Shown one piece after another: positions 15,540-30,038 of a stretch of DNA of 33,285 bases (positions within the stretch are counted from its first letter, which is position 1; every line of letters starts with the position of its first letter). The position numbers and the translations under genes were made by a program. Source of the stretch: Desulfobacteraceae bacterium (GTDB taxonomy: Bacteria; Desulfobacterota; Desulfobacteria; Desulfobacterales; SURF-7); the NCBI GenBank assembly GCA_030618465.1, contig JAUXDD010000004.1:1-33285 (forward strand), written 5' to 3'. The notes beneath the pieces are model-generated. The model did no database searches. It saw only the letters and a list, made by a program, of their open reading frames with translations, and was not told the origin of the DNA.

Positions 15540-16765
15540 ATCAAACAACATTAAAACACTACCTGGTATTAAAAGTTGTGTTATTTGCATTGTCACTGGT
15601 CATCATTGCTTCATCGTACTCAGTTGCCGAATCTTTTGAAGATTTTATGAAAGCCCAGGAAGAGGGTGGGAACCAGACGCAGCAGGAATTTGACCAGTAT
15701 AAAAAAGAGCTGGAACAGGAGCTCAGGGTATACAAACAGATCGTTGAACAGGAGTACGACCGGTATAAGAACGATGTCCGGAAATATTGGGAGGATACTG
15801 AAATTTCAGGCAAAAAAAAGTGGATCGAATATTCTCCGGATTTCAGGACAAAAAGAAAAGTGGATTTTGATCAAGGATTTATTGAATTAAGTGTTATTGT
15901 TCTGAAACATCAAAAAGACCTGGAACAGAAATTTGAAACAATGCTCAGGGATTTAATCCTTGAAGATAAGCAGACGGCTTTTAAAAGGGACAGTCTGTCA
16001 CAGAATATTGAAAAGAGAATAATAAAAAAGGCAAAGCATATCAAAACAGGCAGGGTGGAAAAATCTCCCATCATTACCAACATGGTTACCGGATCATCCC
16101 AGCCGACCCGAAAACAGGTGGACACGTCTGTTTCAGCCCTGCTGGAAAAAGGGACAATTACCCGCATGCCTTCAAAAATTGAAAACAGCGATGTGGTTAT
16201 ACTGAAAGCACTGCTTCCGCCTGAAAGTATGCAGGTAAAGGCAAAAGAGTATAAACCGGATGTGGTCAGGTATGCGAAGCAACGCAATATTTCAGGCCCC
16301 CTTGTTTTTGCGGTGATTCATACGGAAAGCGCATTCAATCCTATGGCCCGTTCACATGTCCCCGCATATGGATTGATGCAGATTGTGCCGGGAAGTGCCG
16401 GGAGGGATGTGGCCGAAGTCTTATACGGCAAACAGATTCTTATGTCTCCCTCATTTCTCTACAACGGGGAGAATAATATCAATGCGGGAACAACCTACCT
16501 GTATATTCTTTATTATAGATATCTAAAAAATATTGAAAGCCCTGAAAGCAGGTTATATTGTACAATTGCAGCTTATAATACCGGTGCGGGAAACGTCGCA
16601 CGGACATTTGTGGGATCGACCAATATTAATAAAGCGGTAAAGAAGATTAACAAAATGTCACCCGGGAAGGTTTATAAACGGCTGATGAAAAAACTGCCTT
16701 ATGATGAATCCAGACACTATCTGGAGCGGGTGTCAAAGCGAATGGGAATGTATGAAACCTTATGA
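15536..16765 (+). CDS. MltC-like lytic murein transglycosylase (DUF3393-like N-term + SLT domain)
   Basis: ESAFNPMARSHVPAYGLMQIVPGSAGRDV...NNINAGTTYLYILYYRYL...YCTIAAYNTGAGNVARTF; N-term FEDFMKAQ...FDQYKKE...YDRYKNDVRKYWED. No lipobox seen. Confidence 0.87.
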   Translation: MNQTTLKHYLVLKVVLFALSLVIIASSYSVAESFEDFMKAQEEGGNQTQQEFDQYKKELEQELRVYKQIVEQEYDRYKNDVRKYWEDTEISGKKKWIEYSPDFRTKRKVDFDQGFIELSVIVLKHQKDLEQKFETMLRDLILEDKQTAFKRDSLSQNIEKRIIKKAKHIKTGRVEKSPIITNMVTGSSQPTRKQVDTSVSALLEKGTITRMPSKIENSDVVILKALLPPESMQVKAKEYKPDVVRYAKQRNISGPLVFAVIHTESAFNPMARSHVPAYGLMQIVPGSAGRDVAEVLYGKQILMSPSFLYNGENNINAGTTYLYILYYRYLKNIESPESRLYCTIAAYNTGAGNVARTFVGSTNINKAVKKINKMSPGKVYKRLMKKLPYDESRHYLERVSKRMGMYETL

Positions 16766-18210
16766 GTATATGTGAAAAACAGCAGGCATTGTTGAGGAAA
16801 CTACCCGGGGTAGATATTATCCTTGCAAAAATACAGGATGATAATGATTTTTTTCAAATCCCCAAATCTGTCCTGGTCAATTCCATCCGTTCAGTTATTG
16901 AGGGCCTGCGGACAGCCATAGTTGGCGGACAGGAAATTTCTGAAAAAAATTTCTCAGAATCTCTTGAAATCAACAGTATTGTTGAAAAACTTAAAATATG
17001 GGTTAACCAGGTCATGACACTTAATCTCAGACCCGTCATAAATGCAACCGGTGTTGTTGTCCATACCAACCTCGGGCGTTCATTACTTTCCACGGATGCG
17101 GTTGATCATATCCTGTCTGTTTCAGGACGGTATTCAAATCTGGAATTCGATCTTTCAACAGGAAAAAGGGGCATTAGATACAGCTGTGTGGAAGATATAT
17201 TATGTGAAATCAGTGGCGCTGAAGCGGCTATGGTTGTGAACAATAATGCGGCCGCTGTCCTGTTGTGTCTGGACACAATTGCTAAAGATCATGAAGTAAT
17301 CGTATCCAGAGGCGAGCTTGTTGAAATCGGCGGTTCTTTTCGGATTCCTGATGTAATGGCGAAAAGCGGTGCCATATTAAAGGAAGTGGGAACAACCAAC
17401 CGTACGCATTTGAAGGATTATGAAAACGCTATAGCCACTTCAACAGGCCTTTTGTTAAAAGTCCATACAAGCAATTACAGCGTTGTCGGCTTTACTGCCA
17501 GTGTCTCCCTGAAAGATATTGTTGAACTGGGAATGAGATACCAGATTCCTGTCATGGAGGATCTTGGAAGCGGAACATTTATCGATTTTTCCAGGTATGG
17601 GCTGTCAAAGGAACCCACAGTTCAGGAATCCATTGCAGCGGGAACTGATGTTGTGACATTCAGCGGGGATAAACTGCTCGGAGGCCCCCAGGGCGGAATT
17701 ATTGTAGGCAAAAAAAATATTCTTGATAAAATCAAGAAAAACCCCCTGACCCGGGCGCTTCGTATTGACAAACTTACGCTTGCCTCACTTGAAAGTACGC
17801 TACGATTGTACCGGGATGAAGAAAAAGCCATTCAATCGATTCCAACCTTACGTATGTTAACAACTTCTTTTGCAACAATTGAGAAAAAAGCATTTATTCT
17901 TGAAAAGGAACTAAAAACCCTGAATGACTCCCGTCTTCGTATTTATCTGAAGAACCTTTCTTCATGTGTGGGCGGCGGCGCACTCCCGCTTTTGGGACTG
18001 CCAAGTAAATGTGTGGGGATCAAGGTTGAAGAGATGACGGCAAACCACATTGAAACATTTATGCGAATGCACACCCCGGCAATCATCGGGCGAATAGAAG
18101 ATGACCTCTTTATCATGGATTTAAGGACGGTTGAGGAAGATGAAATACCTGCTGTTACCGGTGCTGTTGCTGATATGCTGGAATCAGTGACTAATAATGG
18201 CCCAGGATAA
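16762..18210 (+). CDS. selA: L-seryl-tRNA(Sec) selenium transferase
   Basis: 482 aa; RPVINATGVVVHTNLGRSLLS, YSNLEFDLSTGKRGIR, EVGTTNRTHLKDYENAI, PLP-Lys region TFSGDKLLGGPQGGIIVGKK. Confidence 0.95.
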   Translation: MSICEKQQALLRKLPGVDIILAKIQDDNDFFQIPKSVLVNSIRSVIEGLRTAIVGGQEISEKNFSESLEINSIVEKLKIWVNQVMTLNLRPVINATGVVVHTNLGRSLLSTDAVDHILSVSGRYSNLEFDLSTGKRGIRYSCVEDILCEISGAEAAMVVNNNAAAVLLCLDTIAKDHEVIVSRGELVEIGGSFRIPDVMAKSGAILKEVGTTNRTHLKDYENAIATSTGLLLKVHTSNYSVVGFTASVSLKDIVELGMRYQIPVMEDLGSGTFIDFSRYGLSKEPTVQESIAAGTDVVTFSGDKLLGGPQGGIIVGKKNILDKIKKNPLTRALRIDKLTLASLESTLRLYRDEEKAIQSIPTLRMLTTSFATIEKKAFILEKELKTLNDSRLRIYLKNLSSCVGGGALPLLGLPSKCVGIKVEEMTANHIETFMRMHTPAIIGRIEDDLFIMDLRTVEEDEIPAVTGAVADMLESVTNNGPG

Positions 18211-25351: not shown

Positions 25352-27265
25352 TTATCGTCCTTTTCGTAGTTTTCTGATATCCCCTATGCGTATGGTTAAC
25401 TTAATCGCATCAAAATATTCAATCAGCGGTATGACGTACTTACGCGAGGCGCCTGTCATTTCCTTGAACTGTGGTGTGGTGATCTCTTCGTGGGTTGTAA
25501 AAAAATCAACCAGCCTGTTTTTCAGGTCATTGACAACATCTGAATGATAATACAGGTCGTCTTTTACCCTGGTAATTTTTCCCTGGTCAACCAGATGCAT
25601 AAGTACATCTTTTGCATTTCCGGTGTTAATGTCAAGCGTCTTCCCCAGCTCCTTGAAATAGGGCGGTGTGAGTCCGGCCTGAAGGTAGGTTTTTAAAATT
25701 TTCCTGCTGATATCTTCCTGATCAACTTCCATGGAGACTTTATACCCGGCAAGGCGTACGGTATTTTCCTCCCCGACAATTTTGTTTTCCTTTATCATCT
25801 GTGACAGAATCAGGTTAAACAGTTTTGGATGTAAAACAGAGGGCAACTTTGTTTTGAGTTCTTCCCTGGGCATGCCTTCTTTAAGCGGGTTGGCTGAATG
25901 GTATTTCCCCAGCAGCGCCAGTGTCTTTCTGTCCAGGTTTTCAATGGTATTTTCATGAATATAGACCCGGTTTTCCCTGTCAGCCTGAATAACTGCTCTT
26001 TTGGATAACAGGGCAGACATAGTATTCTGAAGATGTTTTTCAGGAAGATTGGTCATTATTTTAAGGTCGGAAAAAGAGACCCCGGAATAACCGGCCTGCT
26101 CAACATGTAAAGAGATGATTTCTTCCGGTGTGCCGGCAACAAGACGTTTCAATCCATCGATGATTTCCGGCTTAAACCGTTTGTGTTTTTTGGGGATGGG
26201 ATTTAACAGTTTTCCTCCCCCGATTGTGCGAACCGGGGAATAGCTCCTTAAAACATATCGATCATCCCGAACACAGGCAACAGGAGAATCAAGTCTGATC
26301 TGTGCTTCAATGGATTCGCCTGGTTTGAGTTCTTCCCGGTCAAGAAGGATCAGGTTCCCCATGATTTCACTTGTACCGGAGTGGAACCTGACGCGGGTGC
26401 GGTTTTTTAACGGTTTTTCATTGCTTTTTAGAAAATTCAATGTCACATCAAGCATGTAGCTGGATTTTAAAGCATTCGGTGTTGACAGCACATCTCCCCG
26501 GTTTGCCGATGCCTTTTCAAGTCCCTGGAAATTGATTGCCGTACGCATTCCGGATTCAGCCTCGTCCACACTCTGATTATGGACCTGTATGCCGCGTACT
26601 TTGGATGTAATACCGGATGGATATACCATGATCGTATCGCCCGTTGAAATTTTGCCGGAATATAGTGAGCCGGTGATAACTGTGCCAAATCCTTTCATGG
26701 TAAACACCCGATCAACAGGAAGACGAAAAAGACCGGAGGAAGTGTGTCCCGGTATATTTTCACACAATTTGTCAAGGGATTGGGTAAGTTCCTGGAGCCC
26801 CTGTCCCGTTGTTGAGGACACGGGAAGGATAGGCGAATTTTCCAGGAAGGTGCCCTGAACAAATTCACTCACATCCTCCGTTACAAGTTCCAGCCACTCT
26901 TCATCCACCATGTCTATTTTGGTCAGAACCACAAAGCCGTGTTTTATATCCAGGAGCGTGCATATTTCCATATGTTCCCTGGTCTGTGGCATGACCCCTT
27001 CATCGGCGGCTATAATCATGGCAACGATATCTATGCCAGTGGCACCGGCAACCATGTTTTTTACAAATTTTTCATGGCCGGGAACATCCACAATTCCCAG
27101 ATGCTGACCGCCCGGCAGATCAAGAGAGGCAAAACCCAGCTCAATTGTGATGCCGCGAAGCTTTTCTTCCTTCAACCGGTCAGTATCAATTCCGGTCAGT
27201 GTTTTTATCAGACTGGTCTTGCCGTGGTCAATATGGCCTGCTGTGCCGAGGATTATCTGTTTCAC
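25352..27265 (-). CDS. selB: selenocysteine-specific translation elongation factor
   Basis: 637 aa; [61 protein letters not shown]-terminal winged-helix repeats. Confidence 0.96.
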
Positions 27266-27324: not shown

Positions 27325-27501
27325 TTATAGCTTTGGTTTCCTGTTCCGAAAATATTCAAATATATAAGCAAGCCCAAGAAGGACAATGCCAAGTCCTGCG
27401 GCAAAGGCAATGTTAACATCCGGAAAAAAAAATCGTGAAAGAATAACGGCAAAAACCGCAGCTAAAATTGCTCTGATTACAAAAATATTAAATGATCCCA
27501 T
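27325..27501 (-). CDS. small membrane protein (58 aa)
   Basis: Reverse reading from ATG at 27501: MGSFNIFVIRAILAAVFAVILSRFFFPDVNIAFAAGLGIVLLGLAYIFEYFRNRKPKL*, two hydrophobic segments; below the ORF-track length cutoff. Confidence 0.65.
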   Translation of the reverse strand: MGSFNIFVIRAILAAVFAVILSRFFFPDVNIAFAAGLGIVLLGLAYIFEYFRNRKPKL

Positions 27502-27796
27502 AATATATAACCTTTTTATAGATTTGAAGTGACTTAATTAATATAGATGCCGGTTGGGGTCAATAATAAATGACACTGGTTTGTCTGATATTAATTGAAA
27601 CTATGAGCATTAAACAAAACTCCCGGTAATCCCCTGTAATTTTTTGAAAATATAAATGCGGTTACCCTGTGAATCGATGCCGTCAGAATTGACAAAACCG
27701 GTTTGCCGGGTTATGTGTTCTATTATTGAACCGTTTGAGCATTTATATAAATAAACCGCAAAACAGTATGTATTAATCTGTAAAATGGGAGGGTAA

Positions 27797-28654
27797 ATGG
27801 TAAAGAAAAAGAGAGCATTGATTTATTTGATTTTAACCATTTTTTCAGTGGTGTGTCTGTATGCACCCGATGGTTTTTCAGCAGTTGAGTGGGAGATGGA
27901 AGACAGTATTGTGCTTGAGGATAAACCCATAGCTATAGTCCTTTCCAGGGATGGTTCAACCGCCTATTTTCTTTGCAGGGGGAAAATACTGCTGTATTCC
28001 ACAAAGTCAAAAAAAGTTACGGATACCATTCCTGTTGAAGGGAATTACTCCGGCATCGCACTTACACCGAACGGAGAAAAACTGCTCCTTACGGATACCG
28101 GGAATAAACAGATTGCAGTTATCAGCATTTCCCGGATCTATGATATCAAGATCGGGAAGTCTCCCATTATAGGGAAGAAAGATGCATCGGTAAATATTGT
28201 TGCTTTCCTGGACTTCCAATGACCGTACTGCGCGCGGGATTATCCCGTACTTGAGCAGTTGCTCGAGAAATATTCCAATGATGCCAACCTTGTTGTCAAA
28301 CACTTTCCATTAAGAAATCACAAGTTTGCAAGAAAAGCGGCCATTGCCGCCCTGGCAGCGGACAGGCAGGGTAAATATGCTGAAATAACAAAGATGTTTC
28401 TGGAGAATTTCAGAAAATTAAACGATGAGACAATAAAAACATTTGCCAGGGACGCCGGTCTTGACATGACAAAATTTGAAAAGGATATGGCTGATCCTGT
28501 GTTTAACACAATTATCGGCTTTGACACGAAAATCGGCAGGCAGGCAGGCGTCCGTGGCGTACCGGCTGTTTATATTAATGGAAAGAGGGCGAAGCAGCGT
28601 TCGCTTCAATCGTTTTCACAGATGATTGAAAAGGAGCTTAAAAAGAAGAAATAA
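27797..28654 (+). CDS. selenocysteine-containing DsbA/DsbG-like thioredoxin-fold protein (TGA at 28220-28222 read as Sec)
   Basis: Track ORFs 27797-28222 and 28259-28654 are in the same frame (offset 462 = 154 codons); the bridge reads ...NIVAFLDFQ-U-PYCARDYPVLEQLLEKYSNDANLVVKHFPLRNHKFARKAA...GVRGVPAVYINGKR, a normal DsbA-like order with Sec where CxxC has Cys. Signal peptide at N-term; selA/selB in window. Confidence 0.9.
28227..28259 (+). promoter_or_regulatory. SECIS-like stem-loop immediately downstream of the in-frame TGA
   Basis: ACTGC(28227-28231)-gcg-CGGGA(28235-28239)-tta-TCCCG(28243-28247)-tacttga-GCAGT(28255-28259). Confidence 0.65.
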
Positions 28655-28686: not shown

Positions 28687-29079
28687 TCATGACCAGTTTG
28701 CCAGCTTGAGTCCTTCGATCCGTTGAAAGTGTTTTAAGTTATTCGTTACAAGGGTTAAGTTACAGGCAAGGGCGCAGGATGCTATAATCAGATCAAAATC
28801 ATCAAGACGTGTACCGTCTGTTTCAAGCCGGGCCTTCAGCATTCCAAATATTTCCACTGATTCCAGTCCAATGGGAATAATTTCAAGAGACTGTTCCAGT
28901 TTTTTTATTTTGGCGGTGTTACTGGAAATTTTGTTGGATTTGTTAGCACCATAGTACAGTTCCATCAGTGTGATGACACTTATCAAAATGGGATCGTTTA
29001 TATGATGCTCAAGGTTTTCCTGAACAGCGGTGTTGCCTTTCAGGCTGTAAATAATTATATCTGTATCAAGTAGAAACAT
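28687..29079 (-). CDS. PIN-domain toxin, VapC/FitB-like
   Basis: 130 aa; MFLLDTDIIIYSLKG, SVITLMELYYGA, DDFDLIIASCALACNLTLVTNNLKHFQRI. Confidence 0.92.
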   Translation of the reverse strand: MFLLDTDIIIYSLKGNTAVQENLEHHINDPILISVITLMELYYGANKSNKISSNTAKIKKLEQSLEIIPIGLESVEIFGMLKARLETDGTRLDDFDLIIASCALACNLTLVTNNLKHFQRIEGLKLANWS

Positions 29080-29351
29080 CAGAATCCTTTTTGCAGCTTC
29101 TTTGAATTCTTTCTTGCTTTTTTCAACTGTAAAATTATTTCGTCAGAATTCCTGTCATCCTCCCATGATCCGGAAAGATCAAGAAGTGCCTGTGCCGGTG
29201 TTTTTATCTGCTGAAACATTTTTTTGTTGGCCATATAGGTTTTTATGACAAAGAGCACCTGCTGGCTTATTGTCCGATTTTCCGAAGACGCCAGGTTTTT
29301 TATCTGTGCATAAAAATTATCGTCAATACCTTTAATCTGTAAATTTGCCAT
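29079..29351 (-). CDS. antitoxin paired with the PIN toxin (FitA/RHH-like)
   Basis: 90 aa; MANLQIKGIDDNFYAQIKNLASSENRTISQQVLFVIKTYM ribbon-helix-helix-like; overlaps the toxin start. Confidence 0.82.
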   Translation of the reverse strand: MANLQIKGIDDNFYAQIKNLASSENRTISQQVLFVIKTYMANKKMFQQIKTPAQALLDLSGSWEDDRNSDEIILQLKKARKNSKKLQKGF

Positions 29352-29401
29352 TATTATTCCCCTTTTTATGCTTCATGAAAATGTCAAATGGGGTTTTCCA
29401 T

Positions 29402-29448
29402 TGACAATACATTTTAGGCGATTTATTATCGTATATAATGTATTGTCA
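29402..29448. promoter_or_regulatory. inverted repeat upstream of the CopG-like antitoxin, candidate autoregulatory operator
   Basis: Perfect 12-bp arms TGACAATACATT (29402-29413) and AATGTATTGTCA (29437-29448); TATAAT at 29434-29439. Confidence 0.65.
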
Positions 29449-29463
29449 CTATGGAGGTATACA

Positions 29464-29697
29464 ATGAGAACAAAAAGAAAAATCAGCTTAACGATCGATG
29501 CGAACCTTTACAATTCTTTTGAAGAGGCGGCAAAAACGTATAAAATGCCAAAAAGCCAACTAGTTCAGGAAGCTATTAAATGTTGGTTGAAAATACAAAC
29601 TGAAGCTCTAATGTCCAGGGGCTATGAAGAAATGGCAGAAGAAGATAAGGCCTTCGCAAAAGTTTCTCTTGAAGCACAAAAGGAGATTCTTACATGA
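29464..29697 (+). CDS. CopG/RHH-family antitoxin (MazE-like partner)
   Basis: Start MRTKRKISLTIDANLYNSFEEAAKTYKMPKSQLVQEAIKCWLK preceded by ggaggt; ATGA overlap with the toxin gene. Confidence 0.85.
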   Translation: MRTKRKISLTIDANLYNSFEEAAKTYKMPKSQLVQEAIKCWLKIQTEALMSRGYEEMAEEDKAFAKVSLEAQKEILT

Positions 29698-30038
29698 ATG
29701 TTTTTCCTAAACGCGGTGAAATATGGTTGGTAAACTGGAATCCTGCAAGAGGCAGCGAACAGGCAGGTAAACGTCCCGCACTCATCATACAAAATAACAT
29801 TGGAAATGAAAAAGCTTCCACAACCATTGTCGCTGCAATTTCAAGCTCAGTAAGAATATATCCGATGAATGTTCCAATAATCCCCCCGGAAGGTGGGCTT
29901 GACCGCCCATCAATTGTAAAAACAGGCCAGGTATTTACCGTATCAAAGGAGAGACTGGCGAAATGCCTCGGCAAGCTTGGTAAAGAAAAAATGAAAGAAG
30001 TTAATACGGCTATTAAGTTAAGCCTGGATATTTCGTAA
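29694..30038 (+). CDS. MazF/PemK-family endoribonuclease toxin
   Basis: 114 aa; KRGEIWLVNWNPARGSEQAGKRPALIIQNN, FTVSKERLAKCLGKL. Confidence 0.93.
   Translation: MNVFPKRGEIWLVNWNPARGSEQAGKRPALIIQNNIGNEKASTTIVAAISSSVRIYPMNVPIIPPEGGLDRPSIVKTGQVFTVSKERLAKCLGKLGKEKMKEVNTAIKLSLDIS

Follow-up and report, generated by a model that had tools for sequence, protein, structure and literature searches.

A predicted exported DsbA-like selenoprotein with a two-bladed propeller domain, encoded across an in-frame UGA in the Desulfobacterales

We analyzed a 33,285-nucleotide stretch of DNA from a Desulfobacteraceae genome (hereafter the window) and conclude, with high confidence, that positions 27797 to 28654 of the plus strand are one DsbA-fold gene in which a UGA is decoded as selenocysteine (Sec) at the catalytic position. 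The joined translation, its Pfam profile matches, and the codons of its homologues together identify a DsbA-like selenoprotein of 285 amino acids that is predicted to be exported. The original prediction described two same-frame open reading frames (ORFs) split only by a TGA and 12 codons, and this is what we found: ORFs 27797-28222 (+) and 28259-28654 (+) lie in a single frame of 286 codons, of which TGA 28220-28222 is the sole interruption, and the matches to Thioredoxin_4 and DSBA cross the junction. Joined, they give the predicted 285-residue product with no further stop, in which the TGA, read as U at residue 142, yields ...VAFLDFQ-U-PYCARDYPVLEQLL... and supplies position 1 of a U-P-Y-C active site. 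Direct reading of the sequence shows a Shine-Dalgarno-like GGGAGGG (27787-27793, +) ahead of ATG 27797 and none ahead of TTG 28259, the apparent start of the second ORF, which falls in the apical loop and 3' arm of the Sec insertion (SECIS) hairpin described below. Mechanical gene calling yields two false ORFs here, as had been anticipated.

The codon found at the catalytic position of homologues carries much of this assignment. A read-through search, in which all stops were passed, covered 390 genomes from the order and gave 90 aligned sequences, the window's included. At the catalytic codon, 61 have TGA, 22 have TGC, and 7 have TGT; TAA, TAG, and any other codon that is neither TGA nor Cys are absent from all 90. 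The proposal that the TGA takes the place of the codon for the first Cys of C-P-Y-C in DsbA-type proteins thus holds across the alignment, in which both active-site columns are invariant. Three relatives from other genera of the same family carry the TGA at identities of 57, 49, and 41%, as do 57 further homologues in the order; because the same codon is TGA in 60 other homologues, its position is not due to chance. A first scan of the genome contigs with a single sequence found no match, and the alignment-based scan, which used a Cys pattern, retrieved Cys forms.

The second line of evidence is a bacterial SECIS (bSECIS) hairpin, CTTGAGC-AGTT-GCTCGAG (28250-28267, +), identified by folding and a recoding test. 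According to a 2026 review, bSECIS elements have a loop of 3 to 9 nt with G in the first two positions, a stem of 4 to 16 bp, a distance of 16 to 37 nt from the UGA, and a minimum free energy (MFE) of ≤ -7.5 (PMC13188914); the window hairpin lies within all four ranges, with an AGUU loop of 4 nt, a 7-bp stem, a distance of 34 nt past the UGA, and an MFE of -17.4 kcal/mol for the UGA plus 45 nt. In nearly all TGA members, the hairpin occupies positions +30 to +47 of this stretch, and its loop is AGGU in 45, AGUU in 15, and GGUU in 1. Because the hairpin sits within coding sequence, the null for the stem came from 300 trials of synonymous recoding, in which every sequence drew on its own codon usage. 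The 61 TGA members form 6.54 of 7 stem pairs on average, against 4.36 ± 0.12 expected and a recoded maximum of 4.72, whereas Cys members form 3.69, against 3.40 under recoding. With 20 extra Cys homologues added, the combined Fisher p is ∼1e-37 for TGA members, a value exaggerated by the nonindependence of related sequences, and 0.97 for Cys members; the contrast between the two groups is still clear. Two-sided changes occur in the stem: pair 33-44 is G-C in 36 and C-G in 19 sequences, and pair 35-42 is G-C in 48 and U-A in 6. Taken by itself, the window sequence would show a complete stem under recoding with a probability of 0.03. A test of phylogenetically independent pairs for association between hairpin and Sec gave about 4 concordant to 0, with too few supported pairs for significance. 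No Rfam family reached its gathering score in the window, and matches near the gene are at chance level only. The hairpin is kept beyond coding need in TGA members only. The bacterial SECIS that was sought thus exists and goes with the TGA codon.

The window also encodes two components of the Sec machinery, as originally claimed: selA, Sec synthase (16762-18210, +; TIGR00474, 605.7 bits, cutoff 267.9), and selB, the Sec-specific elongation factor (25352-27265, -; TIGR00475, 392 bits, cutoff 242, with SelB-wing_2 and SelB-wing_3). The predicted divergent arrangement of selB about 530 bp from the selenoprotein gene was confirmed at 532 bp, but an unassigned 58-aa ORF of membrane-protein character (27325-27501, -) intervenes, so selB is not necessarily the immediate neighbor. 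When the ORFs of 24 other loci were clustered with those of the window, no conserved neighborhood with selA, selB, or a redox partner emerged; thus, proximity to selB is not a feature of the family. Two toxin-antitoxin-like pairs lie directly downstream of the selenoprotein gene: a PIN domain (1.5e-14) with its small upstream partner (28687-29351, -) and PemK/MazF (1.9e-32), likewise with a small upstream partner (29368-30038, +).

Elsewhere in the genome, a 98%-complete draft of 295 contigs, a tRNA-SeC gene with anticodon TCA (74 bits; contig G000:C69) provides selC, and two formate dehydrogenase alpha subunits contain an in-frame TGA (L220 at nt 1741 and L221 at nt 1885; G000:C75 and C170), in both cases at the canonical FdhA Sec site. 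Of the two genes whose absence from the genome was to count against Sec decoding, selC was therefore found and selD was not, either by profile search or by a search with the SelD of a relative. The best selD profile match, below the cutoff, is part of a 542-aa frame resembling a thiamine-phosphate synthase/kinase fusion (L022), and the second is weak. SelD, which itself carries one TGA, is encoded by 8 of the 12 family genomes, and the missing gene is probably an assembly gap. A comparison of the TGA form with the occurrence of selA offers no information, because selA is found in 359 of the 390 genomes searched. Together, the codon census, the SECIS tied to the TGA form, and selC support the proposed replacement of the catalytic Cys by Sec. 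In decoding, SelB would bring Sec-tRNA(Sec) to UGA 28220, with recruitment by the hairpin at 28250-28267.

The protein has three parts. A probable N-terminal signal peptide (residues 1 to 28; 27797-27880, +) has a basic start, a hydrophobic helix at residues 2 to 20 in the model, and a putative cleavage site after ...GFS; relatives share a similar hydrophobic leader in the alignment, and inspection by eye revealed no lipobox, [LVI][ASTVI][GAS]C, at the N terminus of the window protein. Residues 29 to 121 (27881-28159, +) form a predicted two-bladed beta-propeller, YVTN-like domain, over which no Pfam family reaches its cutoff. Residues 43 to 123 match the YVTN propeller 1l0q by phmmer (E value, 1e-13); an AlphaFold2 model of the domain alone has seven strands and a pLDDT of 92; and Foldseek matches it to 5c2v, 1l0q, and two-bladed fragments such as 6r5x (rank 14; TM-score to target, 0.65). 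The remainder, residues 122 to 280 (28160-28636, +), is a DsbA-type thioredoxin-fold domain with a helical insert and a G-V-P cis-Pro loop. When the joined translation was compared with the DsbA family, as had been suggested, residues 121 to 279 matched Thioredoxin_4 (PF13462; 3e-26, 93 bits, cutoff 23.2) and DSBA (PF01323; 2e-18, 67 bits, cutoff 25.6). The whole-protein model has a pLDDT of 94, and the top Foldseek matches of the catalytic domain are 3gyk, alpha-DsbA2 (6eez), BdbD, and ScsC, of which ScsC and BdbD are exported types. Pro256 of the cis-Pro loop is invariant in the alignment; the loop is G-T-P in 59 of 70 scored family members. The N-terminal extension, a domain of 93 residues in the window protein, is shared by the aligned family.

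By homology to DsbA, in which the nucleophilic Cys of C-P-Y-C occupies the place of Sec in U-P-Y-C, Sec142 would attack and Cys145 would resolve. The product is likely exported to the periplasm, where the Sec142 selenol and the Cys145 thiol may cycle between a reduced form and a selenylsulfide in exchange with the disulfides of periplasmic proteins. By analogy with the unrelated N-terminal domains of ScsC and alpha-DsbA2, the most likely role of the two-bladed propeller is to link protomers in an oligomer. An oligomerizing N-terminal extension and a G-T-cisPro loop accompany isomerase activity in DsbA-like enzymes (PMC6450060), and the family has the extension and mostly the G-T-P loop. We therefore lean, tentatively, toward an oligomeric isomerase or shuffling enzyme rather than a plain oxidase, although the G-V-P loop of the window protein is the oxidase-like form and counts against this reading.

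The strongest competitor, to which we give somewhat less credence, is a DsbA-like thiol oxidase coupled to VKOR, with the propeller acting as a docking module only. The disulfide machinery detected in the assembly is oxidative: the genome encodes two VKOR-DsbA fusion proteins (L019, 781-2064 of C55; L021, 33-983 of C123), and searches of the assembly found neither DsbB nor DsbD_TM, which would leave an isomerase dependent on some other reductant. The G-V-P loop of the window protein also suits an oxidase. However, the VKOR fusions already have DsbA domains of their own, and most family members have G-T-P. A couple whose nucleophile is Sec is usually more reducing, which fits reduction or shuffling better than oxidation. 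What probability remains after the isomerase and the VKOR-coupled oxidase falls to a substrate-specific reductase or a peroxide-linked role. A more elaborate form of the isomerase reading is a speculation that we consider improbable: a self-assembling propeller, in which, e.g., three to four two-bladed protomers close a six- or eight-bladed ring, would present multiple selenol sites as a periplasmic Se-dependent disulfide isomerase widespread in the order, with the Sec form ancestral and Sec-to-Cys losses repeated.

Other readings concern the UGA itself. It could act as a selenium-dependent switch, such that a 141-residue propeller half with a role of its own is made alone when selenium is lacking, and the N-terminal half is indeed confidently folded alone in prediction. 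We regard this as very unlikely, because 29 of the 90 homologues have Cys and no stop, so a truncated product is not needed, and because the stop follows a thioredoxin-fold strand rather than a domain border. A TGA arising as a nonsense mutation in a pseudogene, or as a miscall of TGC or TGT, with the two halves as remnants, is possible in principle in a draft so fragmented, where a single-base error would suffice. Yet the TGA recurs at the same codon in separately assembled genomes without TAA or TAG, the hairpin is conserved with the TGA only, and constraint at the protein level persists past the TGA. Protein identity to the closest relatives is equal to or above that before it, and differences from the closest relative at codon positions 1, 2, and 3 number 41, 34, and 80 after the TGA, compared with 54, 34, and 88 before; this third-position bias indicates that the coding pattern continues. 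A sequencing error is excluded by the TGA relatives in the family and order, and the pseudogene and error readings are rejected as having next to no probability. Reassignment of TGA (e.g., to Trp) or general readthrough in place of specific Sec decoding, for which it can be said that the frame is open whatever residue the TGA encodes, is equally negligible and was rejected, since TGA is an ordinary terminator in 8 of 28 window genes checked, the position alternates solely with Cys, and the gene has a SECIS of its own in a genome with Sec-specific machinery.

To follow Sec/Cys exchange, we used a tree built without the active-site and SECIS columns. It has 17 state changes, at least 7 of which are forced by well-supported branches. 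Parsimony gives 12 gains and 5 losses, or 7 and 10, depending on how ties are broken; an asymmetric two-state model modestly prefers Sec-to-Cys losses, by 2.2 to 3.2 lnL units. A fossil SECIS, by which such losses could be dated, is not detectable in Cys members, the 20 extra Cys homologues included (Fisher p, 0.97). The weak preference for Sec-to-Cys loss touches on the statement in the 2026 review that this direction is rare outside FdhA and SelD (PMC13188914). In some genomes of the phylum, a copy with one TGA lies beside a copy without a stop (G766:C1:1927662-1929432, G407:C7:146122-147517, and G558:C12:53403-54807); these are possible natural matched Sec/Cys pairs. Elsewhere in the phylum, DsbA-domain relatives whose match is limited to the catalytic part also contain one in-frame TGA (G666:C1:2038124, G702:C1:3180671, and G719:C1:1325832, among others), suggesting that Sec-DsbA may extend beyond the propeller form.

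DsbA/DsbG-like UxxC selenoproteins have been known since 2005. They were reported, under PF01323/COG2761, from the Sargasso Sea in 2005, again in 2006, and as "DsbA 1-3" of the GOS data in 2008, with deltaproteobacterial cases among them (PMC1794560, PMC1088965, PMC2398784), and the 2026 review lists a "DsbA-like protein form 1" (PMC13188914); the window protein joins this known class. These selenoproteins share with it the DsbA fold, a UxxC motif with Sec first, a bSECIS just downstream, and widespread Cys homologues; the passages that describe them mention no propeller domain. The window protein reaches the cutoff of no NCBIfam model. The best is NF041057, the Rcas_1661 thioredoxin-like (seleno)lipoprotein/DsbG-like family, which has the UxxC motif and whose profile matches the thioredoxin domain in all 24 members scanned; the window protein reaches 50 bits where the cutoff is 190, aligns to profile positions 83 to 246 only, with its propeller preceding the aligned part, and lacks a lipobox. 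Among the closest solved catalytic domains are those of the trimeric isomerases ScsC (5idr, 7rgv) and alpha-DsbA2 (6eez), in which the DsbA domain stands behind an N-terminal extension of at least 50 residues (PMC6450060, PMC5524982, PMC8900818). These isomerases differ in having N-terminal domains other than propellers and a catalytic Cys, and they are trimeric, whereas an oligomer is only hypothesized here. Residues 29 to 121 also resemble 6r5x, in which one chain is a two-bladed unit that assembles into an eight-bladed ring; 6r5x, however, is a stand-alone construct that lacks a catalytic domain, and a like assembly here is hypothetical.

A search of open-licence papers revealed no propeller-DsbA architecture. 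This architecture appears to be undescribed, as do the prevalence of Sec over Cys in the family and the recurrent switching between the two. Because the gene is called as two false ORFs and no NCBIfam model reaches its cutoff, a common exported selenoenzyme of the order is probably absent from many annotations. The many natural Sec/Cys pairs, some of them apparently adjacent, would offer matched enzymes for studying the benefit of Sec to thiol oxidoreductases.
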